From positions 1 to 20,119 of IMG/VR virus record IMGVR_UViG_3300035201_000238: DNA of 20,119 nucleotides. One strand, 5' to 3'. The position numbers and the translations under genes are program-made. Source of the DNA: a virus. The notes beneath the pieces are model-generated. The model made no database searches and was not told where the DNA came from. It saw nothing but the letters and a program-made list of their open reading frames with translations. The first letter of the stretch is position 1. Every line of letters starts with the position of its first letter. This document shows positions 2 to 18,268 of this stretch, in pieces.

Positions 2-859
2 GATGTTGATTATATAGTTATTGGTGGCGGTGGTGCTGGTGGTGCTGCTGATCCTGGTGCATTTTCTGGTGGTGGAGGTGGTGGAGGTACTGTTCATGTA
101 AGAACAGGTCATCCTATTACCAATGGTACATTTCCAGTTATAAGCGGAAAAGGTGGTACTAATTCTGCCTCTACTCCATCTGCCGCAATCGGAGGCCTGT
201 CTTATAATAATGCGGGATCAGGTCAAAATGGAGTGGCATCTACTTGTTTTGGACTTACTGCTCCAGGTGGTGGCGGTGGTGGCGGTACTGGTACTGGCGG
301 TGCTGTTGGAGGATCTAGTGGTGGAGGATCTCATGGAGTTACAACTGTTAATACTGCTACAGGTGATGATTGGCCAGGAGCTGCACCTTTAGTATCTCCT
401 ACCAATGGATGGGGTAATCCTAATCATGCAGGAGCAGCTTCATTCCTAGGTGGTGGCGGTGGTGGTGCGGGTAGTGGTGGACCTCCTGCTAGTCGTGCTG
501 GTGGAGCTGGTATAGATCTTTCTCCTATGGTTGGAACAACATTTGGAGGAAATTCGTCAGCAGATAATAATACTGCTAGTGGTGGATTTTTTGCTGGTGG
601 AGGTGGTGCTGGACATTATAGTGGACCTAAAGCAGCTGGCGGTTCTGGTGGTGGTGGTCCTTCTGGTGGTCCTGCTGGTGGAAATGGTGCTCGTGCAGTA
701 TTAAGCACTGGTTCTGGTGGTGGTGCTGCTGATGGTGCTACGGCAAGTCATAACCCATGGAATGATCCAACACAACCAAATGGTACTTTTGGTACTGGTG
801 GTGGCGGCGGTCCTGGTATTGTTATAATTAGATTTCTAACCGCAGACCTAAGCACCTGA
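2..859 (+). CDS. Glycine-rich tail-fibre-type protein (5' end outside window)
   Basis: The reading frame is open from the window edge and ends at TGA 857-859, so the N-terminus is missing. The visible 285 residues are dominated by runs of glycine with interspersed Ser, Ala and Pro. An early segment reads DYIVIGGGGAGG and the end reads GGPGIVIIRF. These are the opening and closing signatures of the glycine-rich (polyglycine-lattice-like) domain found in many marine phage fibre and adhesin proteins. The second fibre at 2011-3108 has the same signatures, so the two are paralogues. I infer a distal fibre or receptor-contact role outside the cell. ATGs inside the frame (for example at 233) are only internal Met codons; the frame continues upstream without a stop. 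Confidence 0.85.
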   Translation, partial: DVDYIVIGGGGAGGAADPGAFSGGGGGGGTVHVRTGHPITNGTFPVISGKGGTNSASTPSAAIGGLSYNNAGSGQNGVASTCFGLTAPGGGGGGGTGTGGAVGGSSGGGSHGVTTVNTATGDDWPGAAPLVSPTNGWGNPNHAGAASFLGGGGGGAGSGGPPASRAGGAGIDLSPMVGTTFGGNSSADNNTASGGFFAGGGGAGHYSGPKAAGGSGGGGPSGGPAGGNGARAVLSTGSGGGAADGATASHNPWNDPTQPNGTFGTGGGGGPGIVIIRFLTADLST

Positions 860-865
860 TAAATA
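858..865 (+). promoter_or_regulatory. Late-type promoter motif GATAAATA
   Basis: GATAAATAACT lies 14 bases before ATG 879 and overlaps the TGA of the upstream fibre gene. T4 late promoters read TATAAATA, and cyanophage versions are similar. The same 11-mer recurs at 10527 before another probable virion gene, which supports a late-promoter role. Confidence 0.55.
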
Positions 866-878
866 ACTAAAAAGTCTA

Positions 879-1619
879 ATGACAAGAGCAAGAGACACTG
901 CACGATTAGTTAATCCAAATCAATTTACAATTGATGCGGCTAATAATAGAATTGGATTAGGTAGTGAAACTCCTGATGCTAAGTTGGATGTTGCTGGTAT
1001 TGTAAGTGCAACTGCGTATTATGGAGATGGATCAAACCTTGAAGGCGTTGCAAGTGCAGGATTAGGTACAGCAATTAGTGATAGTGGTGCACTTAGTGTC
1101 ATTTATTATACTGATAATACATTAACAGTCGGAGATGATACTACTGTTGATGTTCCTGCAACTTCCGATTCTAATGTTGCATACACACAATATGCTGAAG
1201 TTGCAGTTGCTGATACAAAAGATTTAATTATTGCTGATGGTGATGACTTTGTTCCTGATATTCTTGGTATTACAACTGATGGACCTGCAGGAACAATGGC
1301 AGGCGGTGGAAGAATACGTGTAGATAATATTTCAAGTAAGTCTGGAAGTGGTTCAGTTTACTTTAACGCTGGTGTTGATATCACTGGTGTTGGTACGGTT
1401 GCAACCTTAGAAAATACAACTTTAGGTTCTGCTAATGTTACTGTAACTGGTATTACTACATCAGCCAGTACCATTGTAGGATCTGCTGTAACCACGGATT
1501 CAGAAGGAATTAGAGCAGCAGGTATTGTAACTGCTACTAGTTTTACTGGTAATGGTGCTAACCTTACTGGACTGAATATCCCTGCTGGATTTACATGGGT
1601 TGAAGCATCACTGTTCTAA
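879..1619 (+). CDS. Virion fibre-like protein with repeated GDGSNL/GNGANL motifs
   Basis: This 246-residue protein starts MTRARDTARL, a style of N-terminus I associate with cyanophage structural proteins. Near residues 30-55 it has a head-like segment (LGSETPDAKLDVAGIVSA) followed by YYGDGSNLEG. Near the C-terminus it has a second copy of the unit, GIVTATSFTGNGANLTGL. Such units are typical of beta-rich phage fibre proteins and of proteins carrying S74-type chaperone tails, although no S74 peptidase domain is present. It is rich in Thr, Val, Gly and Asp and poor in Cys, as expected for an extracellular beta-structure. It lies between two glycine-rich fibres behind a late-type motif, so a tail or baseplate accessory role is inferred. 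The exact function is unknown. Confidence 0.75.
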   Translation: MTRARDTARLVNPNQFTIDAANNRIGLGSETPDAKLDVAGIVSATAYYGDGSNLEGVASAGLGTAISDSGALSVIYYTDNTLTVGDDTTVDVPATSDSNVAYTQYAEVAVADTKDLIIADGDDFVPDILGITTDGPAGTMAGGGRIRVDNISSKSGSGSVYFNAGVDITGVGTVATLENTTLGSANVTVTGITTSASTIVGSAVTTDSEGIRAAGIVTATSFTGNGANLTGLNIPAGFTWVEASLF

Positions 1620-1622
1620 ATA
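1616..1622 (+). promoter_or_regulatory. Late-type promoter motif CTAAATA
   Basis: CTAAATAC overlaps the stop codon TAA (1617-1619) of the preceding gene and lies about 20 bases before ATG 1642. It matches the cyanophage variant of the T4 late promoter. Confidence 0.5.
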
Positions 1623-1641
1623 CTAATAAAAGAAAAATACA

Positions 1642-2007
1642 ATGGCATTAGCACGCGGAAATTTAGGAAATGTTACAGCAGTAGGTGCTGGTAGTAGTAC
1701 TGCTGTTTATACTGTTGGATCGGCAAAGACAGCATATGTGAAAGCAGTGTTACTTCATAATTTGGATCAATCTAATGCTCAAAATGCAAGAATTCATGTA
1801 GTTCCTAATAGTGGTGGTAGTGCAGGAAGTGCAACATCTACTACACAGGTTGCAAGAATTGGTATTGGAACAGATGATACATTCTTCTTTGAACCTGCAT
1901 ATCCTATTACATTAGTGGCGAATGGAGATACAATTCAAGTAGAAAATGAAGGTACTGCTGCTACTGCTGCTCTTAATGTAATTGTGCTTGGTGATAAGGA
2001 GGCTTGA
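1642..2007 (+). CDS. Small structural-type protein, conserved in style with cyanophage virion proteins
   Basis: The 121-residue product starts MALARGNLGNVTAVGAGSS. It is rich in Ala, Gly, Thr and Val, with a segment (TAYVKAVLLHNLDQSNAQNA) that alternates hydrophobic and polar residues like a beta-sandwich. There is no signal peptide, membrane segment or catalytic motif. Its place between fibre genes and behind a late-type motif suggests a small virion decoration or fibre-accessory protein. The 3' end carries AAGGAGG (about 1996-2002), which is the ribosome binding site of the next gene. No specific family name can be given from the sequence alone. Confidence 0.7.
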   Translation: MALARGNLGNVTAVGAGSSTAVYTVGSAKTAYVKAVLLHNLDQSNAQNARIHVVPNSGGSAGSATSTTQVARIGIGTDDTFFFEPAYPITLVANGDTIQVENEGTAATAALNVIVLGDKEA

Positions 2008-2010
2008 TAA

Positions 2011-3108
2011 ATGGGCGTCAAAAATAATAAATTTAATGTTAGATCATCATGGTGGAATTCATATGTAAGTGGAAAATCCAAGGCATATAATACAGGACAA
2101 CTTGGTAGTACTCACCCTGGATCGTATGGAGTTAGTGGTGGAACAGAGATTACACCTGGAGATGGATATGTTTACCACTTCTTTACTACTGCAGGTTCAG
2201 AAGAAACTTTAACAAATAACGATCCTACAAAGTCAGCTGAGTATGTTATAATTGGTGGCGGTGGTGCTGGTGGTAATGGACCTGATACTGGTAATTATCG
2301 TGCTGCTGGTGGTGGTGGTTCTGGACTTTATAGGAGTGGACCAATTACTCTAAGTACTGGTGTAGGTTATAAATTATATGTTGCAAATGGAGCACCTCAA
2401 ACTAGTGGTCCCGATGGTGCTGCTCCATATCCCACTACTACTGGTGGTCGTGGTGGAGATGGTGAAAATAGTTGGTTAGTAGATCCGACAGCTGGTATTA
2501 GTTCTATTACTTCTGCTGGTGGCGGTGGTGGTGGTGGTGGAGCCAATACTCCTGTCGGGCGTTATACAGGGCAAGATGGTGGTTCTGGTGGTGGTTCTGG
2601 TGGATATGGTCCTGGTACTAAAGGAACAGGTAGTGGTGTAGATTATCCAGGTAGTCCCCCTTCTTTACCCTCACCTACTGATGGATGGGGTAATGATGGT
2701 GGCACATCTGACGGATCTAATGGTGGTGGCGGTGGTGGTGCCAGTAGTGTTGGTGGTCCTGGCGCTGGGACTTATAAGGGTGGTGATGGTATTGCTGCAT
2801 TTAATGGTTCTACAGGCATTCCACCTGCTTATGGAACACCAGGACCAACTGCTGGTAGATGGTTTGCTGCTGGTGGAGGCGGGGGTACTAGACCCACTGC
2901 TTCTGCTAATGTGCAACCAGGTGGTGTTGGTGGTGGCGGTGCTGGTGGTTGGAACCACGGTGGACCTCAAAGATATGGTATTCCAGGAACTACAAATACT
3001 GGTAGCGGTGGTGGTGGAACTGGTGGTGATAATTACCCAGCCACTGAAGCAAATGGTTTAGGTGGAGCTGGTGCACCAGGTATTATAATGATTAGATATC
3101 CAGCTTAA
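2011..3108 (+). CDS. Glycine-rich tail-fibre-type protein, complete
   Basis: A 365-residue protein. Its non-repetitive N-terminus (about residues 1-75, with SSWWNSYVSG and GDGYVYHFFT) probably attaches it to the virion. From about residue 78 it has AEYVIIGGGGAGG followed by nearly 280 residues of Gly-rich sequence. It closes with GAGAPGIIMIRYPA, the same end signature as the partial gene at the window start. The start is supported by AAGGAGG just upstream. GGT-rich coding DNA makes long false frames on both strands (for example 2671-2970 minus), which are composition artefacts. The likely role is a receptor-binding or adhesion fibre. The two paralogues within 3 kb may exchange sequence by recombination. 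Confidence 0.85.
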   Translation: MGVKNNKFNVRSSWWNSYVSGKSKAYNTGQLGSTHPGSYGVSGGTEITPGDGYVYHFFTTAGSEETLTNNDPTKSAEYVIIGGGGAGGNGPDTGNYRAAGGGGSGLYRSGPITLSTGVGYKLYVANGAPQTSGPDGAAPYPTTTGGRGGDGENSWLVDPTAGISSITSAGGGGGGGGANTPVGRYTGQDGGSGGGSGGYGPGTKGTGSGVDYPGSPPSLPSPTDGWGNDGGTSDGSNGGGGGGASSVGGPGAGTYKGGDGIAAFNGSTGIPPAYGTPGPTAGRWFAAGGGGGTRPTASANVQPGGVGGGGAGGWNHGGPQRYGIPGTTNTGSGGGGTGGDNYPATEANGLGGAGAPGIIMIRYPA

Positions 3109-9267: not shown

Positions 9268-9298
9268 CACACTACCACCAGATGCTGCTTTGGTGCTC

Positions 9299-9304
9299 TA
9301 TAAT
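9299..9304 (+). promoter_or_regulatory. Probable -10 element (TATAAT) of the helicase gene
   Basis: A consensus TATAAT six bases before ATG 9311. Transcription from it would begin at or within a base or two of the start codon, so the mRNA would be nearly leaderless. No good -35 is seen. Confidence 0.45.
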
Positions 9305-9310
9305 AACTGT

Positions 9311-10531
9311 ATGATGAAACTAAGAGCACACCAGCAACGCTGTCTTAATGCCATGCGGAAGTACCGCAAGGGTCAGATCATTGTGCCTACTGGTGGTGGT
9401 AAAACGTTGTGTATGATTAGAGATGCAGATAGACAGTTTAATAGTTGCAAATGGAGCGTATTCCTTAAAAATCCTGATAGAAAGACTATTGTAGTTGTAT
9501 CGCCACGTATTTTATTGGCACAACAACATAGTGAGGATTTTTTAAGTTTACTTGATGTACATCCTATGCTACAGGTTAAACCTTTGCATGTGCATAGTGG
9601 ATATATTTCTAATGATTCTACCACAGATCCTAATGAGATTGTGAAGTGGACTGAGAAGAATTACAGGTATAATAAGATTATCTTTACCACGTATCATTCG
9701 TTGCATAGGATACAAGAGTCTGGTATAAATGTAGATACAATCTATTTCGATGAGGCACATAATGCAGTTCAGCGACATTTTTTCCCTGCTACTGAATTTT
9801 TTGCTAATGTGGATGCAATACGCTGTTATTTCTTTACTGCTACTCCTAAGCACTCTACTACTATTTCGGATCCTGGAATGAATGATGAGGAAGTATTTGG
9901 TAAAGTATTAGAGCAAGTAACTGCTCCTGAATTAGTAGTCCAAAAGCACATATTACCAGCAAGAGTATTAGTTAAGCAGTTAGATATGATTAAAGCAGGT
10001 AGAGCACCAATTGAAACAGATGCAGAGAATTTGTTAACAACTCTTGATGATATTAAGATTGATAAGGTATTGATTTGTGTTAGAAGAGTGTCTCAGATCA
10101 TCAGGATGACTGAGGAGACTAACTTCTGCAATCAGTTACAAATGCGTGGATATAATTGGATGTATATTACTGCCAAGCATGGTGGAGTTATTAATGGTCA
10201 GAGTGTTGATCGTGAGCATTTCTTTAAGACACTAGAGAGATGGGGAACACAAGATGATACAAAATTTGTAGTTATGCATCATAGTATTTTGTCTGAAGGT
10301 ATTGATGTGCCTGGACTTGAAGCGACTATTATGATGAGGAATATGAATTACATTGCCATGAGTCAAACAATTGGACGTGTAATCAGGCGAGGTAACAAAG
10401 AGAAAACGCATGGACTGTGTGTGGTTCCTGTTAGTGACCGTGTTGGCATTTCTACTGCTAAGAAACTCAATGCTGTGGTTGATACTATATTTGTGAAGGG
10501 TCAACCTGCTGTTGGGATAAGAGGTAGATAA
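9311..10531 (+). CDS. Superfamily 2 DNA/RNA helicase
   Basis: 406 residues from ATG 9311 (or 9314); the upstream TTG extension would cover the -10. Helicase motifs are in order: a Q-like start (RAHQQRCLNAM), motif I PTGGGKT (26-32), Ia VVVSPRILLA (61-70), motif II DEAH (147-150), motif III TAT (176-178) and motif VI QTIGRVIRRG (352-361). The layout fits SF2 enzymes of the UvsW/type-III-restriction-helicase group, but it is shorter than UvsW and has no extra nuclease domain visible. The expected role is ATP-driven remodelling of DNA junctions, R-loops or RNA in phage replication. The name uvsW is not used because the motifs do not distinguish it. The stop is embedded in a late-type motif. Confidence 0.85.
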   Translation: MMKLRAHQQRCLNAMRKYRKGQIIVPTGGGKTLCMIRDADRQFNSCKWSVFLKNPDRKTIVVVSPRILLAQQHSEDFLSLLDVHPMLQVKPLHVHSGYISNDSTTDPNEIVKWTEKNYRYNKIIFTTYHSLHRIQESGINVDTIYFDEAHNAVQRHFFPATEFFANVDAIRCYFFTATPKHSTTISDPGMNDEEVFGKVLEQVTAPELVVQKHILPARVLVKQLDMIKAGRAPIETDAENLLTTLDDIKIDKVLICVRRVSQIIRMTEETNFCNQLQMRGYNWMYITAKHGGVINGQSVDREHFFKTLERWGTQDDTKFVVMHHSILSEGIDVPGLEATIMMRNMNYIAMSQTIGRVIRRGNKEKTHGLCVVPVSDRVGISTAKKLNAVVDTIFVKGQPAVGIRGR

Positions 10532-13291: not shown

Positions 13292-14695
13292 ATGAAAATC
13301 TATGTGCACAGTCCACGTGAATGGATGGAGTTATATAAACTTGGATTGAGAGTGTTTGGGTGTTTTGTTGGTTATACAGAAAAAGAATATTTAGAGGAAC
13401 GATGGGATGATGGTGATTATTCTCATCTGATTGAAATTCCTAATTTATTAGATGAATTTGATGTTCATGATGAAATTACGGATCATTGGATTCATGATGA
13501 GTTGGTGAATGAAGGAGGGTGGCAACAATATCTTAAAGTTGATGATAGGGCAAGATCTTCTGATTTTTTCTTGTTTAATGATGGTACAGAGGATAAAGAA
13601 GAGGAACAAAGGAATGCATTAGAAAGTATTAGGAAGGTAGTAAAAAGAGTTGATCAATATTTTCGTGAGTATGAATTAAAATATAAGGAATCTCCTGCTA
13701 GAACAAGGAGGAAAGAGAAGAGAAGACTGGAAGATTATCATAGGAGAATTAAACCAGTATTGTTAGATTTTATATTTGAGAATTGTTTGCATCAGTCATC
13801 AAAAGATGATAAAATATCAATACTACGAGATGCTAAAGGTAGAGCATCTGAGTATCTTTTGGAAAAAGGATTTTCCAATATAACTACAGATGAAGATAAA
13901 GAGTCTGTAGCGTTACCATCTGTAACTAAAAATCAGATAAATTTTATCGATAAACAAACACGTGACAAATGGTACATGACAAAGAATAGGTTTTATGATT
14001 CTACTATTGGCAATCCACCCTATCAGAAAGGTAAGAACAGCGATTATTATGTAGAACATATTAAAAATGCTGCTGAGATTACTAAAATTGGTGGTAGAGT
14101 TGTGCTAGTAACTCCTAACAAATGGATTCTGCCTCATAGCAATGCATCTAAGACATTATTTCGTTACTATCAAGTGCAAAAGTTATGGGTTGATGTTAAT
14201 GAACATTTCAAAGGTATTGGCACACAGATTGGAATGTTCAGTGCTAATGTAAGTGCAGTTCCACATGAAGGGTTGGTTGAAGTTGAATTAGCAGATAAAT
14301 CTATCATACAATGGGATCCACGTGAATTGGTTATTCCTCCTAAAATGCCAACATCTGAAGGCATAGATTTGTTTAAAGAGTATAGAATTCTTAAGGATGA
14401 AGGGAAAACTCTTAACTTTACTAGGTGGAGTAAGAAAACTATACCATCTCATGAAAATTATGTGTTTGTGTGGCGACAGTGGAAATCCTTCCAAGGTGTG
14501 CCTTATTTTGATGCAGAAGTTGGGCATAAAAATCAATATCCAAATAAAATAAGAGATGGATCATATATTTTAACAGATAATCCTGATGCAATGTGTGAAT
14601 ATCTAAGGACAACAGTTTATGCACAAAAACTTTATAATTTGTTTGATGGGATGAACATTTATCCTTTCATGTGGGATTATATACCAGATGCCTAA
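13292..14695 (+). CDS. N6-adenine DNA methyltransferase, catalytic half (NPPY) with N-terminal extension
   Basis: A 467-residue protein. IGNPPYQKG (NPPY at 241-244) is the catalytic motif IV of N6-adenine methyltransferases. GGRVVLVTPNKWILP (267-281) follows, in the place of the strand/loop region that comes next in Eco57I-type enzymes. The C-terminal 180 residues (for example YVFVWRQWKS, GVPYFDAEVG) would be target recognition. No SAM-binding motif (FxGxG) is seen before NPPY; it occurs instead in the next gene. Residues 1-120 contain DHWIHDELVN and RSSDFFLF followed by ALESIRKVV, reminiscent of T5orf172/GIY-YIG-like domains, and residues 120-200 are a charged helical linker. The stop overlaps ATG 14688. 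Expected product: a subunit methylating adenine in phage DNA, which would protect it or mark it. Confidence 0.75.
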   Translation: MKIYVHSPREWMELYKLGLRVFGCFVGYTEKEYLEERWDDGDYSHLIEIPNLLDEFDVHDEITDHWIHDELVNEGGWQQYLKVDDRARSSDFFLFNDGTEDKEEEQRNALESIRKVVKRVDQYFREYELKYKESPARTRRKEKRRLEDYHRRIKPVLLDFIFENCLHQSSKDDKISILRDAKGRASEYLLEKGFSNITTDEDKESVALPSVTKNQINFIDKQTRDKWYMTKNRFYDSTIGNPPYQKGKNSDYYVEHIKNAAEITKIGGRVVLVTPNKWILPHSNASKTLFRYYQVQKLWVDVNEHFKGIGTQIGMFSANVSAVPHEGLVEVELADKSIIQWDPRELVIPPKMPTSEGIDLFKEYRILKDEGKTLNFTRWSKKTIPSHENYVFVWRQWKSFQGVPYFDAEVGHKNQYPNKIRDGSYILTDNPDAMCEYLRTTVYAQKLYNLFDGMNIYPFMWDYIPDA

Positions 14696-15101
14696 AAACA
14701 AACACAATGAGGAAATAGGATCGGGGATAGAAAGATCTGATGATCGTATTAATACTACAGGTGAAGTGTTCACACCTTTGGCACTTTGTGCTATAATGGT
14801 GAAAGAAATTCCATTAAATGTATTGGAAGATCCTAACTCTACCTTCATTGATAGTTCAGCAGGTAATGGTAATTTTTTGATTGCATTACGAGATGAATTA
14901 GTTCAATATCATGACATTAATCATATCTTAGATAATATGCTTTATGCCGTTGAATTAATGGAGGATAATCATAAAGAATTGTGCGAACGTTTGGGAGTAT
15001 CAATAGATCATCCTCATTATGTTTGCGACGATTCTTTAACATATCAATATGCATTCGGCAAACTTAACCCGTTAGAGTCTGCTTTTGCAGCAGCATTGTA
15101 A
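14688..15101 (+). CDS. N6-adenine DNA methyltransferase, SAM-binding half
   Basis: The 137-residue product carries the N-terminal half of an Eco57I/N6_Mtase-type enzyme. It has motif X-like TGEVFTP (24-30), motif I FIDSSAGNGNFL (53-64, the SAM loop), acidic motif II YAVELMEDN (86-94, Glu 89 for the ribose) and motif III VCDDSL (112-117). It stops about 20 residues later, exactly where a normal enzyme would run on to NPPY. That NPPY half is the gene immediately upstream, overlapped by eight bases. The two products probably form one active heterodimer. The alternative is a degraded remnant, but both frames are intact. Following the stop are 84 bases with a dyad and promoter. Confidence 0.75.
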   Translation: MPKNKHNEEIGSGIERSDDRINTTGEVFTPLALCAIMVKEIPLNVLEDPNSTFIDSSAGNGNFLIALRDELVQYHDINHILDNMLYAVELMEDNHKELCERLGVSIDHPHYVCDDSLTYQYAFGKLNPLESAFAAAL

Positions 15102-15185: not shown

Positions 15186-15635
15186 ATGCCTGTTAAGTCT
15201 TCAACTGCCACCGCTCCCAAGCGCCGCGCCCGCAAGACCACTACTAGCAAGTCCCCAGTTGAGTCAACGACAAAGGTCATTCCTGTGCAGTCTGTGACTA
15301 AATACACAGAACCTCTAAAGAATGAAACCATGACTGAGACTCCCGCGCCTGTATCTCCTCAACCTGAAACTACATCAACCACTAGGAGATTTGCCACCAC
15401 TCGCCCAGTAGAACCAAAAATTACGCTGGAAGAGTATGTAACTGATTTTAAAATCAGGATGCAAATCAACAATTATGAGGTGATGGAGTTCTTGGCAGAT
15501 GTAGTCAAATTCTACAAAAGTGCCAAACCTGTTGTAGTCAAATCCATTGATTATGTCAAGGATTCTTATGATAGGGCATTCAATCAAGAACAGGATCAGA
15601 AAGAGGAAGAAAAGCAGGACAGTCAGGACAGTTGA
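15186..15635 (+). CDS. Hypothetical protein with low-complexity basic N-terminus (149 aa)
   Basis: MPVKSSTATAPKRRARKTTT begins about 75 residues rich in Thr, Pro, Ser, Lys and Arg, probably disordered. A helical second half follows (EEYVTDFKIRMQINNYEVME, FLADVVKFYKSAKPVVVKSI), then a Gln/Glu/Asp-rich tail. The basic N-terminus could bind DNA or an acidic host protein. The first third uses C-ending codons (gcc, cgc, ccc) more than the flanking genes, part of a GC-rich patch. The stop (TGA 15633-15635) lies in the centre of a dyad, followed by a terminator. Confidence 0.6.
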   Translation: MPVKSSTATAPKRRARKTTTSKSPVESTTKVIPVQSVTKYTEPLKNETMTETPAPVSPQPETTSTTRRFATTRPVEPKITLEEYVTDFKIRMQINNYEVMEFLADVVKFYKSAKPVVVKSIDYVKDSYDRAFNQEQDQKEEEKQDSQDS

Positions 15636-15645
15636 TAAACTGTTA
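15626..15645 (+). repeat. Junction dyad copy with stop codon at its centre
   Basis: GGACAGTT-GATA-AACTGTTA, then CA. The TGA stop of the upstream gene straddles the centre. A terminator begins four bases later. Confidence 0.65.
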
Positions 15646-15648
15646 CAA

Positions 15649-15671
15649 GCACCCCTTGAGGGTGCTTTTTT
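15649..15671 (+). terminator. Rho-independent terminator
   Basis: The stem GCACCC/GGGTGC with a CTTGA loop (15649-15665) is followed by six T (15666-15671). It ends the transcript of the preceding gene and is followed within six bases by the -10 of the next. Confidence 0.85.
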
Positions 15672-15676
15672 GTGCC

Positions 15677-15682
15677 TATAAT
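15677..15682 (+). promoter_or_regulatory. Probable -10 element (TATAAT)
   Basis: TGCCTATAATTAGAGAG directly follows the terminator T-tract. The -35 would overlap the terminator stem (TTGAGG at 15656 with a 15-base spacer). ATG 15708 is about 20 bases beyond the expected start point. Confidence 0.55.
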
Positions 15683-15707
15683 TAGAGAGTACACACGAGA
15701 TCACCGC

Positions 15708-15890
15708 ATGAACTGGTTTTCTGAGCACCTGCTGAACTCAACTCACTGGGTTTGGATTCGGTTGCTTGAAGACGCTCCTAAGGACGCCATCCATCGCCGA
15801 CTCACTTGGGTCTTTGATATGGGCGTGAGGGATACGATCAACTGGCACTTGGGCGACGAGATCGACTTCTCTGCCTGCCCTGGCGACTGA
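15708..15890 (+). CDS. Small Trp-rich hypothetical protein (60 aa), GC-rich
   Basis: ATG 15708 is chosen over the GTG at 15672, which lies before the -10. Product: MNWFSEHLLNSTHWVWIRLL, then EDAPKDAIHRRLTWVFDMGV and RDTINWHLGDEIDFSACPGD. It has five Trp in 60 residues. By my hand count the gene is about 54% G+C, far above the AT-rich genes around it, with C- and G-ending codons like those of high-GC marine Synechococcus. It may have been acquired from the host recently. A terminator follows at 15929. Function unknown. Confidence 0.6.
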   Translation: MNWFSEHLLNSTHWVWIRLLEDAPKDAIHRRLTWVFDMGVRDTINWHLGDEIDFSACPGD

Positions 15891-15928
15891 CTCCCACAGC
15901 ACCTCACGGCAACGTGACTAAACCAACT

Positions 15929-15956
15929 GAGAGGACTGGTGTTCCTCTCTTTTTTT
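15929..15956 (+). terminator. Rho-independent terminator
   Basis: A perfect seven-base stem GAGAGGA/TCCTCTC around CTGGTGT (15929-15949), then seven T. It lies 38 bases after the small GC-rich gene. Confidence 0.9.
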
Positions 15957-15979
15957 ATGTCAACAATTAAAAAATCCAT

Positions 15980-16019
15980 ATCGAGGCATCTGCAGGTAGT
16001 TTCATACCTGTGCCCCGAT
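15980..16019. other. Long imperfect hairpin in a non-coding stretch
   Basis: ATCG-A-GGCA-TCTG-CAGGTA pairs across a six-base loop (GTTTCA) with TACCTG-TGCC-C-CGAT. It has 14 base pairs, one mismatch and one four-base bulge. It lies between a terminator (15929) and the promoter at 16084, a 245-base stretch with no convincing gene. On the minus strand it would be followed by a run of T (complement of 15969-15974). It may be a small structured RNA or a bidirectional terminator. Confidence 0.4.
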
Positions 16020-16055
16020 CATAATAGGGAAAATTTCATTTATTGCACATAGAGT

Positions 16056-16075
16056 GGACACCTTACAAACTGTCT
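16056..16075 (+). repeat. Junction dyad copy, diverged
   Basis: GGACACCT-TACA-AACTGTCT keeps GACA...TGTC and the four-base centre; five of eight bases pair. It lies nine bases upstream of the -35 TTGACT. Confidence 0.4.
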
Positions 16076-16083
16076 ACTATTGA

Positions 16084-16112
16084 TTGACTTTCCTGCCCTT
16101 TGCTGCCATACT
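16084..16112 (+). promoter_or_regulatory. Promoter TTGACT-N17-CATACT (shared early-type class)
   Basis: TTGACT at 16084-16089, 17 bases and CATACT at 16107-16112, preceded by TGC. The 24 bases at 16103-16126 are identical to 18231-18254, which indicates a conserved promoter plus start region. It drives the gene at 16136. Confidence 0.7.
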
Positions 16113-16135
16113 ATAAGAGTAGTCAACCAAAAACT

Positions 16136-16396
16136 ATGCAAACCGCACTCATGACTGAAGACCAAACCTATAACGGTTGGGCAAATTATGAGACTTGGAA
16201 CGTTGCTTTGTGGATTGGAAATGATGAATTTCTTTACAACGTTGCACGTCGTTGTTCTGATTACAAACGCTTTGCTCAAAGGGTTTCATCTGATGATTAT
16301 GGTTATGAGTTTAAAACTCCTGATGGTGTTTCCTTCAATGATCCTAAACTTGACATTGAAGAATTGAATGAAATGATTGATGAGATGTGGGATTAA
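16136..16396 (+). CDS. YNGW/YETWNVALW family protein (DUF7249-like, 86 aa)
   Basis: ATG 16136 is used because the longer TTG form covers the promoter. The 86 residues include QTYNGWANYETWNVALWIGN, a signature that I recall from a small family (DUF7249) of cyanobacteria and their phages, followed by NDEFLYNVARRCSDYKRFAQ. The acidic helical C-terminus is LDIEELNEMIDEMWD. No function is known for the family. There is no clear ribosome binding site, and the leader is about 17 bases. The gene heads a unit that continues to 16705. Confidence 0.8.
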   Translation: MQTALMTEDQTYNGWANYETWNVALWIGNDEFLYNVARRCSDYKRFAQRVSSDDYGYEFKTPDGVSFNDPKLDIEELNEMIDEMWD

Positions 16397-16403
16397 TTCA
16401 ACC

Positions 16404-16571
16404 ATGAAAATTATCCTACTCGCTATCATTGCATTTCTTTTGTATCAGTCACCTGATGCAAGAAATGGTGCCGCTGATTTCCTACGAGGGACAGCAGACG
16501 TTGTTGACACTAAACCAACACCATCTGACAATCCTGAGTATTTCCAGATCCCAAATCCTTTTCACCAATGA
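16404..16571 (+). CDS. Small membrane-anchored or exported protein (55 aa)
   Basis: ATG 16404 (rather than the earlier 16377, inside the previous gene) gives MKIILLAIIAFLLYQSPDAR, then NGAADFLRGTADVVDTKPTP and a Pro-rich end. The N-terminal hydrophobic stretch (2-14) is a short membrane anchor. The SPDARxxAADxLRxxAD pattern recurs in small cyanobacterial and cyanophage proteins. Its stop overlaps the next ATG (16568). Function unknown. Confidence 0.65.
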   Translation: MKIILLAIIAFLLYQSPDARNGAADFLRGTADVVDTKPTPSDNPEYFQIPNPFHQ

Positions 16572-16705
16572 ACACAACGATCCGTTATTCTTTCCCTGCT
16601 GATTGTAAGTTTCGCCTAATGTCTTTCCCAACATATCAGAAAGCAATTGAAGCGATCGAAATGTTTAGGAAAATTAACATAAAAGCGGAAGTCAAGCACT
16701 GGTGA
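16568..16705 (+). CDS. Small hypothetical protein (45 aa)
   Basis: ATG 16568 overlaps the preceding stop (ATGA) and gives MNTTIRYSFPADCKFRLMSF, then PTYQKAIEAIEMFRKINIKA and EVKHW. It looks like a strand followed by a helix. The TGA (16703-16705) is the first part of dyad copy 10, which supports the reading frame's end being a true unit boundary. Function unknown. Confidence 0.55.
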   Translation: MNTTIRYSFPADCKFRLMSFPTYQKAIEAIEMFRKINIKAEVKHW

Positions 16706-16722
16706 CAGTTGACAAAGTGTCA
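16703..16722 (+). repeat. Junction dyad copy with stop codon
   Basis: TGACAGTT-GACA-AAGTGTCA, then CAAG; seven of eight bases pair. It starts with the stop codon of the upstream gene and is followed four bases later by a terminator stem. The near-identical copy at 18183-18202 shares CAGTTGACAAAGTG. Confidence 0.7.
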
Positions 16723-16726
16723 CAAG

Positions 16727-16750
16727 AGCGGTTGCAAAACCGCTTTTTTT
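16727..16750 (+). terminator. Rho-independent terminator
   Basis: A perfect seven-base stem AGCGGTT/AACCGCT with a GCAA tetraloop, then seven T. TTGCAA at 16732-16737 inside it may also serve as the -35 of the next promoter. Confidence 0.9.
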
Positions 16751-16760
16751 GTGCCATACT
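16732..16760 (+). promoter_or_regulatory. Promoter TTGCAA-N17-CATACT overlapping the terminator
   Basis: CATACTATAGG (16755-16765), with TGC before it, matches the class seen at 16107 and 18235. The 17-base spacer places the -35 within the terminator hairpin. The next ATG (16767) is only six bases beyond the -10, so a leaderless message is expected. Confidence 0.6.
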
Positions 16761-16766
16761 ATAGGT

Positions 16767-16973
16767 ATGGAAAACAAAATTACTACTCTTTCGACTATGC
16801 AACTTCAAACCGTCCGCGATTTCTTCACTGAAAATGAGTGGGACGCCATTGATTCTGCTCTCTCTGACTATCAAGACTATGGTGATCAAGAGACTGATTT
16901 GATGAACTCAATTGCAGACAAAATGCAAATGCTGTTTGCACCACGTTACCAGGATGAAAACCGTCATGGTTAG
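16767..16973 (+). CDS. Hypothetical acidic protein, probably leaderless (68 aa)
   Basis: ATG 16767 gives MENKITTLSTMQLQTVRDFF, then TENEWDAIDSALSDYQDYGD and a helical end. The protein is acidic and helical with no known motif. The upstream TTG alternative (16749) would be inside the terminator T-tract and the -10. There is no room for a ribosome binding site, since the -10 is six bases away. It overlaps the next gene by eight to twenty bases, depending on which of the two ATGs is used. Confidence 0.6.
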   Translation: MENKITTLSTMQLQTVRDFFTENEWDAIDSALSDYQDYGDQETDLMNSIADKMQMLFAPRYQDENRHG

Positions 16974-17898
16974 AGTTAAAAACACTCACATCGATCATCC
17001 AGAGGATTCAATTCTTCTGGGTGATCTTTCTGTTTTGGATTGGTTCACAGCACAATCACATCTTAGCACAAAGATTGATGGTGCTCCCGCAATAGTTTGG
17101 GGCACAAATCCCGCCACAGGTAGATTTTTTGTTGGCACTAAATCGGTCTTCAATAAAATCAAAATCAAGATAAATGAGACCCATGATGACATCGACAAGA
17201 ACCATGGACACACGCCTTCAGTTGCTAATATACTTCACCATTGCCTTTCTTATCTTCCTCGCACATCAAGCATCTATCAGGGGGACTTTATAGGATTTGG
17301 GAAAGGCGAAACGGAGTATAAACCCAACACAATCACATATAAGTTTAAGAAACCTGTATTTGCACAGTTAATCATTGCGCCACATACTGAGTATTTCTGT
17401 TCACCAGATCACAAAGATTTGCGCAATTGTTACTCAGAACCATTAACACATGACCTTGAAAAGTTTGGTGATAACGTGCTATGGGTAAGACCAAATGCAT
17501 ATTTAATGCAGGATGATTTCGACAATTCTATAGCATTTGCTAAACAAATAGCAACACTATGTAACTTTGTTGAAACAGAGAAGCATGCAACTAGGATCAA
17601 AAAGTTTATCAACACAATGATAAAGAATGGTACTAATTTACGTGCTTATTTCTTTGAAGAGGACATTGCTACTGTAACTGATTGTGATGTAAATCTCATA
17701 AGGTTATGGTTACTTGTCAAGTCAATTAAGGATGATATGATACAGTTAACACATAATGATGGTCCTGATGCATATATTGGAGATGAGAAGATTGATGCAG
17801 AAGGATATGTCATGACTAATGAATTTGGCACATATAAGTTAATCAATAGAGAACAATTCTCCCGTGCTAATTTTACCATGGAGAAGAATTGGACATAA
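16966..17898 (+). CDS. Covalent nucleotidyltransferase-like protein (ligase-type KxDG; DUF6267-like)
   Basis: 310 residues from ATG 16966 (ATG 16954 is possible). The opening NTHIDHPEDSILLGDLSVLD followed by TKIDGAPAIVWG (KIDG at 36-39) looks like the cyanophage/pelagiphage family annotated DUF6267. Ligase-superfamily motifs are visible: I K36-I-D-G, then FVGTKSVFNK (55-64), III-like YQGDFIG (104-110), IV EGYV (279-282) and V YKLIN (290-294, Lys 291). These match the order in ATP-dependent DNA/RNA ligases and capping enzymes, where the motif I Lys is adenylylated. No C-terminal OB-fold is evident. It may ligate or adenylylate a nucleic acid or protein; the substrate is unknown. Its TAA overlaps the next ATG. 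Confidence 0.75.
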   Translation: MVRVKNTHIDHPEDSILLGDLSVLDWFTAQSHLSTKIDGAPAIVWGTNPATGRFFVGTKSVFNKIKIKINETHDDIDKNHGHTPSVANILHHCLSYLPRTSSIYQGDFIGFGKGETEYKPNTITYKFKKPVFAQLIIAPHTEYFCSPDHKDLRNCYSEPLTHDLEKFGDNVLWVRPNAYLMQDDFDNSIAFAKQIATLCNFVETEKHATRIKKFINTMIKNGTNLRAYFFEEDIATVTDCDVNLIRLWLLVKSIKDDMIQLTHNDGPDAYIGDEKIDAEGYVMTNEFGTYKLINREQFSRANFTMEKNWT

Positions 17899-18032
17899 TG
17901 AGTAAATACTTAATGGTCGCATTTTTCTGTGTTAGTGTACTTGCTATTATACAAGTATACGAACCACAAATTGACTATCAACACAATCATTTAATGGAGG
18001 ATTATTACAATGAAGAGTGCAAGTGTTCTTAA
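17898..18032 (+). CDS. Small single-pass membrane protein (44 aa)
   Basis: ATG 17898 forms TAATG with the previous stop. It gives MSKYLMVAFFCVSVLAIIQV, then YEPQIDYQHNHLMEDYYNEE and CKCS. It has one membrane helix (about 5-20), a short acidic exposed tail and a terminal Cys pair. The overlap with the next gene (23 bases) is typical here. Function unknown. Confidence 0.5.
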   Translation: MSKYLMVAFFCVSVLAIIQVYEPQIDYQHNHLMEDYYNEECKCS

Positions 18033-18192
18033 AGAGTTAAAAGAATTGCGGGAAGCATGGCACAAACAAAACTTTAGATTTGACGCAAATCAGCGTAAAA
18101 GATATGATGAATTGCGTGGAATGAGACGAGAACGCGTTCAACAATTATATAAGGAAGGCAGGGTATATTCAGGACCATCTGGGATCAGTTGA
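18010..18192 (+). CDS. Basic helical protein, cyanobacterial/cyanophage type (60 aa)
   Basis: ATG 18010 has GGAGG about nine bases upstream. Product: MKSASVLKELKELREAWHKQ, then NFRFDANQRKRYDELRGMRR and ERVQQLYKEGRVYSGPSGIS. A long basic helix pair with the pattern LKELREAW...RFxANQxxRYDEL...RRERV occurs, from memory, in short cyanobacterial and phage proteins of unknown role. The TGA (18190-18192) lies at the centre of a dyad. Confidence 0.7.
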   Translation: MKSASVLKELKELREAWHKQNFRFDANQRKRYDELRGMRRERVQQLYKEGRVYSGPSGIS

Positions 18193-18202
18193 CAAAGTGG
18201 CA
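18183..18202 (+). repeat. Junction dyad copy, left arm diverged
   Basis: GATCAGTT-GACA-AAGTGGCA, then CAA. It shares CAGTTGACAAAGTG with the copy at 16703 and differs by one base over the next five. The stop codon of the upstream gene is at its centre. Confidence 0.6.
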
Positions 18203-18211
18203 CAACCCCTG

Positions 18212-18240
18212 TTGCATTTCCCGCCAAATTCTGCCATACT
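18212..18240 (+). promoter_or_regulatory. Promoter TTGCAT-N17-CATACT (shared early-type class)
   Basis: TTGCAT at 18212-18217, 17 bases, then CATACT at 18235-18240 preceded by TGC. The block 18231-18254 is identical to 16103-16126. The ATG at 18269 is about 22 bases past the expected start. Confidence 0.65.
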
Positions 18241-18268
18241 ATAAGAGTAGTCAAGGGAAACACACCCC

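Follow-up and report, generated by a model that had tools for sequence, protein, structure and literature searches.

Two overlapping genes in the analysed window, which is a stretch of 20,119 bases from the IMG/VR virus record of a marine phage with relatives in T4-like cyanophages, probably encode the two subunits of a single N6-adenine DNA methyltransferase of the Eco57I/N6_Mtase (gamma) lineage. The pairing is real, and as an enzyme design it is largely undescribed; it is not a broken gene. What is unusual is the division between two genes combined with a degenerate AdoMet-binding half in cis and an intact one in trans. The features of the window that bear on this finding are listed in Table 1.

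Table 1. Features of the methyltransferase gene pair and its surroundings in the window
Feature	Position	Strand	Details
ResIII/DEAD helicase, probable functional partner	9290..10531	+	PF04851 E=2.9e-16; ~2.8 kb upstream of gene 1
Gene 1	13292..14695	+	467 aa, intact ORF; candidate catalytic/target-recognition subunit
T5orf172-like (GIY-YIG superfamily) N-terminal domain of gene 1, putative nuclease	13292..13588	+	~aa 1-99, HHalign
Degenerate AdoMet-binding half of gene 1	13724..13996	+	~aa 145-235; AF2 strands, VIA-align, A6 conservation
Motif IV IGNPPY of gene 1 (catalytic)	14006..14023	+	From sequence; G240, N241, P243 invariant in 22 homologues
C-terminal part of gene 1, presumed target-recognition domain	14327..14692	+	Presumed from position and low conservation among homologues
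Reading-frame overlap (ATGCCTAA)	14688..14695	+	8 nt, from sequence
Gene 2	14688..15101	+	137 aa, phrog_4376 family; candidate AdoMet-binding subunit
Motif X GEVFTP of gene 2	14760..14777	+	aa 25-30; VFTP invariant in A1
Motif I FIDSSAGNGNF of gene 2	14844..14876	+	D55, A58, G59, G61, N62, F63 invariant in A1
Motif II YAVELMEDN of gene 2	14943..14969	+	aa 86-94; Y86, V88, E89, E92, D93, N94 invariant in A1
Motif III CDDSL of gene 2	15024..15038	+	aa 113-117, from sequence
C-terminal tail of gene 2	15039..15098	+	NPLESAFAAAL; clamp-binding-like GLExFF of relatives poorly kept

Methyltransferase motifs are divided between two overlapping genes

In the known Eco57I/TaqI-like N6-adenine enzymes of the gamma lineage, the motifs run in the order X-I-II-III-IV along a single chain. 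In the window, the catalytic motif IV was found on gene 1 (IGNPPYQKG at residues 239-247), which matched the Pfam family Eco57I (PF07669; E=2.4e-07, 31.4 bits, cut-off 25.3), and motifs X, I, II and III were found on gene 2, which carries FIDSSAGNGNFL at residues 53-64, ends 20 residues past motif III and contains no motif IV. Gene 2 belongs to phrog_4376 (E=4e-67), a phage family of unassigned function whose members are often annotated as 'hypothetical protein', and its match to N6_Mtase (PF02384) was weak (E=0.0026, 17.6 bits, under the cut-off of 20.4). In an alignment of gene 2 homologues (A1), 41 columns were invariant and motifs X, I and II were kept by every homologue; the gene-1 homologues kept an NPPY-type motif IV and had a degenerate motif I.

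We compared both proteins with models of single-chain enzymes. On the methyltransferase model PDLC03273 (432 positions), gene 2 covered positions 43-127 and gene 1 positions 116-223, and on phrog_9133 the corresponding ranges were 734-797 and 815-872. Judged by these alignments, several of which are weak as single matches, the two genes are adjoining and nearly non-overlapping portions of a canonical enzyme. Compared with the nearest relative (L138, 51% identical to gene 1 over the full length), the pN/pS values of the two genes were 0.31/0.72 and 0.26/0.69, and the JC-corrected dN/dS was ~0.16 for each gene, with synonymous sites near saturation; both genes look to be under purifying selection. 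These results bear out several points of the initial annotation, which had described two intact genes with an eight-base overlap, had assigned motif IV to gene 1 and motifs X, I, II and III to a gene 2 that stops there, had proposed an alignment to the two halves of a single-chain enzyme and had argued that the gene was not degraded. The last point is supported by the intact frames, by purifying selection and by the same layout in independently sequenced phages.

The gene pair is widely conserved

Homologues of gene 2 with 58-66% identity were found in ~43 cyanophage records, and three further records gave distant Lak-phage matches. The gene 2 family was represented by 315 candidate viral-contig loci, 80 of which were retrieved. 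Upstream sequence of at least 1.2 kb was available for 90 distinct AdoMet-subunit ORFs; of these, 80 had a catalytic ORF with the strict motif at a distance of at most 700 nt, and 60 of these 80 catalytic ORFs overlapped or nearly touched the AdoMet-subunit ORF; by inspection, most of the other 10 were also accompanied by a catalytic gene. The background for this count was 73 of 403 other ORFs, a rough control that is inflated by overlapping non-coding frames beside the catalytic gene. Partners with NFPY or other motif IV variants (L020, L040, L042 and others) fell outside the strict motif scan and were seen by ORF reading. The partner in L019 matched Eco57I and had no recognised motif IV, and motif IV was not located in L083.

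A reverse search with the gene-1 family alignment identified 45 loci, and gene 2 was located downstream in all 34 of the gene-1-family loci examined ORF by ORF (L138-L171), several of whose contigs are near-identical or common to the gene-2 search. An alignment query was required, as a single-sequence search of viral contigs with gene 1 returned no match. The pair, which the initial annotation had proposed to look for in related phages, was accordingly recovered from both directions.

In P-SSM2, S-SKS1, S-CAM7 and environmental contigs, the motif IV gene lies upstream of gene 2, usually with an overlap of 1-20 nt. Since this layout is shared by isolated phages, an assembly or frameshift artefact was ruled out. 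Other arrangements were also observed: in the Bellamy cassette a phrog_7683 gene sits between the catalytic and AdoMet genes, ACG-2014f has a different order, with the catalytic gene downstream and a nuclease-like gene in between, and one gene-2 copy of S-CAM7 SB42 lies beside a helicase with no adjoining catalytic gene. At L064:6436-8402 and L078:6207-8402, a single AdoMet-subunit gene comes after two catalytic genes in tandem, which suggests that the two catalytic chains may share one cofactor subunit at these loci.

Gene 1 carries a degenerate AdoMet-binding half

Gene 1 was modelled alone (pLDDT 63, pTM 0.48), and from ~residue 145 on the model aligned to complete gamma enzymes (VIA-align; M.BseCI, Z 14.1; M.TaqI, Z 13.9); therefore, the AdoMet half is still there as a fold. 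In the model, the gamma-type fold of gene 1 is thus complete, but its cofactor-binding half has lost motif I. The AF2 model places strands at residues 175-177, 197-200 and 217-219 ahead of motif IV, and gene 1 reads DAKGRASEYL where an intact enzyme has D-x-x-A-G-x-G-N-F. In an alignment of gene 1, the L138 relative and 21 further homologues (A6), D180 and G183 of this half were invariant, and the conserved degenerate half may have some function. A recent tandem duplication of gene 2 was considered as its origin and was unsupported, as profile comparison detected no direct similarity between the gene 2 family and the degenerate halves (probability <1 for the class of gene 1 and <10 for the helicase-fused class). 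Across three partner classes, the degenerate halves resembled each other (profile probability 96-97).

Helicase-fused partners have T5orf172-type N-termini, and the N-terminus of gene 1 resembled these (HHalign probability 96, E=3.8e-09, 84 columns), and two of the helicase-fused partners matched Pfam T5orf172 directly. A Pfam scan of gene 1 did not call T5orf172, and the likeness is by profile comparison only.

These observations revise the picture of gene 1 as a clean half with no SAM loop. The absence of the loop holds at the sequence level, but a degenerate form of the AdoMet half is carried, and the model shows an entire gamma-type methyltransferase, to which a T5orf172-like domain is added at the N-terminus. 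The initial annotation had named a SAM-binding domain in gene 1 as evidence against its own proposal; such a domain is present in the fold and absent in the motif, and in structural content the two genes overlap. The proposal of a two-subunit, permuted enzyme keeps the support of the motif split, the conserved pairing and the same-order fusions described below, although gene 1 is not a bare half.

Minimal partners, fusions and bacterial systems

The catalytic partners fall into classes according to the stretch preceding motif IV, which is absent or comprises ~60-75, ~110-165, ~235-290 or 500-870 residues. The class of ~235-290 residues, to which the window belongs, has the T5orf172-like domain, and the class of 500-870 residues includes a ResIII helicase. 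Members of the minimal class, such as PSSM2_036 of P-SSM2, begin at motif IV (NPPY at residue 9), and no remnant of an N-terminal half was found upstream of the minimal forms within up to 3 kb searched. The minimal state required at least five changes of state on the catalytic-core tree, which has several long branches and leaves the exact number uncertain. As minimal partners lie beside gene 2, the cis half can be dispensed with, and it is the trans half that is retained.

Single-chain fusions in the swapped order were found in Aeromonas phages of the Aeh1 (Aeh1p090), Ah1, PX29, phiAS5 and ZPAH1 types and in a rumen MAG (fusion loci L110-L113, L119, L120, L124 and, for the rumen MAG, L092); a single-sequence search with the L092 fusion gave no match. 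The same order is also seen in split pairs from Vibrio phage phi-ST2, from L118 and L121-L123 and from a Diapherotrites MAG; when set against the L092 fusion, the L118 pair falls into two clean parts. The enzyme of Klebsiella phage KpV477, likewise split in this order, extends over three genes, and in the Lak phage L008 the two parts are ~0.5 kb apart. The swapped order had been read as a real layout, and natural single-chain fusions in exactly that order, together with the many gene 1s that start at motif IV, agree with that reading. In the related split enzymes at L103:1493-3426 (KpV477) and L105:1307-3465 (phi-ST2), the catalytic chain carries a LEM-3-like GIY-YIG domain.

As an independent bacterial case, a comparable system was identified at eight actinobacterial loci (Gordonia, Rhodococcus, Cellulomonas, Bifidobacterium, Frondihabitans, Agromyces, a Propionibacteriaceae MAG and Nocardioides), where an AdoMet-half gene, a helicase and a catalytic gene were found. 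The C-terminus of the helicase is a degenerate AdoMet half (FADVFSTAGLFLMEI), which matched the intact AdoMet halves with a profile probability of 95.7, and the catalytic gene has a conserved start at motif IV (MSKKFDVVIGNPPYQ). The three parts are clearly separate in seven of the eight loci, and in L098 the first two appeared as one ORF in the scan. Two separate stretches of the Type IIG model PDLC03626 are matched by this operon, which lies on contigs L094-L101 and looks like a bacterial restriction-modification layout that is undescribed.

Fold of the fusion and relation to known enzymes

The model of the L092 fusion had a pLDDT of 76 and a pTM of 0.75, with pLDDT values above 93 in the AdoMet half. 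Class-beta enzymes aligned to both halves of this model linearly (M.BceJIV, Z 10.2 over 159 residues; M1.HpyAVI, Z 9.9; CcrM, Z 9.5; the Type III Mod Mbo45V, Z 9.0 over 190 residues). Gamma enzymes matched it half by half, TaqI 97-244 corresponding to model residues 1-118 and CamA 18-158 to residues 323-444. Plain Foldseek with the same model gave weak matches (best E 6.7e-03). Neither the window proteins (E up to 1) nor the fusions L092 and L110 (E up to 0.5) matched N6_N4_Mtase (PF01555).

Gene 1 has the catalytic motif IV ([NDS]PP[YFW]) in an Eco57I-type context, and AdoMet motifs X and I-III are present on gene 2. The order X-I-II-III-IV in one polypeptide is not found here, the intact motifs being on two genes in swapped order and the cis copy being degenerate, and the class-beta order (IV-VIII, TRD, X-I-III) is found in the gene pair and in the natural fusions. 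The enzyme is accordingly gamma (Eco57I/N6_Mtase) in lineage and class beta in motif order. It shares lineage, motifs X-IV and the fold of gene 1 with the gamma enzymes (Eco57I PF07669/N6_Mtase PF02384; M.TaqI, M.BseCI and CamA), but in the window the presumed working AdoMet half is a separate downstream gene. It shares the order of catalytic motifs, recognition region and AdoMet motifs with class-beta enzymes (CcrM, M1.HpyAVI, M.BceJIV and Type III Mod), which, unlike the window pair, are one chain and belong to an N6_N4-type sequence family.

The swapped order is not unprecedented, being the class-beta order, and a permuted single-chain EcoKI-like enzyme is already in print: one sentence in the DNA-modification section of Iyer et al. 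2021 (PMC7824862) mentions a circularly permuted EcoKI-like methylase in jumbo phages. That methylase has the permuted order and the same broad lineage as the enzyme described here, and the Aeh1-type fusions may be among the methylases to which that section refers, although the section describes no split, degenerate cis half or operon. Some C5 methyltransferases are naturally split, with the cut at another place (PMC5944983), and in the split C5 enzyme M.AquI one methyltransferase is formed from two gene products, as we propose here. The helicase-fused partners combine T5orf172, ResIII and Eco57I parts and in this resemble Type IIG/Type I-like restriction-modification enzymes that have T5orf172, helicase and methyltransferase parts; unlike in those enzymes, the AdoMet half is encoded separately. 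In the open-licence literature on split or permuted phage adenine methyltransferases, we found no account of this arrangement, although one may still exist.

Genomic context and other features of the window

A helicase similar to that of the window comes immediately after the AdoMet subunit in L138, L083 and L091 and is located nearby in P-SSM2, Bellamy, ACG-2014f and S-SKS1; the helicase of the window is probably a functional partner of the methyltransferase. A protein of ~190-200 residues (phrog_7683; L005:2445-3008 and L004:3485-4087) was recurrently observed between or beside the two methyltransferase genes. Its match to Mrr_cat was weak and sub-threshold (E=0.12), and a nuclease function is a guess. 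The presence of T5orf172-like domains, helicases and phrog_7683 near the methyltransferase hints at a restriction-modification-like cassette, in which the enzyme probably sits. Such a cassette would perhaps attack host or competitor DNA, with the phage's own DNA being marked.

Three further features of the window were observed. A repeated intergenic element at 15622-18259, with three related copies (repeat-scan families D4, D5 and D8) that have TGCCATACTATAAGAGTAGTCAA and CAGTTGACAAAGTG in common, is possibly a regulatory element. An ORF at 16912-17898 (+) contains STKIDGAPAIVWG and EGYVMTNEFGTYKLI, which by eye are like nucleotidyltransferase/ligase motifs. Long glycine-rich repetitive ORFs at 233-3108 (+) probably encode tail-fibre or adhesin-like proteins.

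C-terminal tails of the AdoMet subunits

Of 61 distinct AdoMet-subunit tails, 54 ended in a peptide such as GLESFFN or GLDQFFE, a pattern that was picked after the tails were seen. The DNA polymerase gp43 of P-SSM2 ends in VNLDSFFS and, among 107 other coding sequences of P-SSM2 that were scanned, was the sole match. NLDFFFE forms the end of the AdoMet subunit of Klebsiella phage KpV477, and the end of this phage's gp55 contains PNLEFLYEAED. The T4 proteins gp43, gp55 and gp33 have similar C-termini, through which they bind gp45, the sliding clamp (PMC2988020). By analogy, these tails suggest clamp tethering of the AdoMet subunit in many of these phages; the window's own tail fits poorly.

Proposed mechanism and alternative explanations

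We propose that gene 1 would supply the region from motif IV to motif VIII, the presumed target-recognition domain and the T5orf172-like N-terminal domain, and that gene 2 would supply the AdoMet-binding half (motifs X, I, II and III). The gene 1 and gene 2 proteins would bind each other, and the base-binding catalytic site of gene 1 would act on a target adenine with AdoMet held on gene 2. Overlapping translation would keep the two proteins in step. The AdoMet half of gene 1 itself, being without motif I, would not be a working half, and a catalytic chain whose own AdoMet half is degenerate would receive an intact one in trans. Since gene 1 alone models as a complete fold, docking of gene 2 would require the degenerate half to be pushed aside or bypassed, and this half may be displaced, a relic or a competitor of gene 2. 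A scheme that we consider improbable as a whole is that the intact AdoMet subunit vies with the degenerate half for one face on the catalytic half, their exchange switching the enzyme between a methylating and a non-methylating (scanning or cleaving) state, and that in many phages the AdoMet subunit is also clamp-tethered by its C-terminal tail, which would couple methylation to replication.

Gene 1 might instead be self-sufficient, with an atypical motif I that binds AdoMet, and gene 2 might be an accessory AdoMet-sensing or regulatory subunit like the activator partners of other methyltransferases. The complete gamma-type fold of the gene 1 model and the conservation of its degenerate motif I as D-A-x-G-x-x within its class agree with this explanation, but the glycine loop is lost and varies between classes, partners without this half are common and still lie beside gene 2, and several phages have gene 2 and the catalytic half joined in one covalent chain; we therefore regard it as unlikely. 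We find it very unlikely that gene 2 serves another methyltransferase, or several, of the same phage and lies beside gene 1 as a matter of operon convenience, because adjacency, usually with overlap, was seen in the large majority of loci in both search directions. The exceptional arrangements in ACG-2014f and S-CAM7 SB42 and the tandem catalytic genes of L064 and L078 point towards such sharing, although several catalytic chains using one gene 2 would be a refinement of the two-subunit enzyme, not a replacement for it. A degraded or misassembled single-chain gene, for which only the unusual order speaks, is hardly conceivable given that the frames are intact and under apparent purifying selection and that the same layout occurs in the independently isolated P-SSM2, S-SKS1, S-CAM7 and Bellamy and in environmental contigs.

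If the two-subunit enzyme is correct, phrog_4376, a widespread family of unassigned function, gains a specific and testable function. A fixed, strongly conserved cofactor subunit with variable catalytic and target subunits could allow specificity to change with the cofactor part constant. The occurrence of an intact trans half with a degenerate cis half, of minimal partners and of full fusions side by side allows a direct test of how circular permutation evolved in methyltransferases. Moreover, annotation models built on single chains miss such enzymes, and the methylation capacity of phages is probably undercounted.
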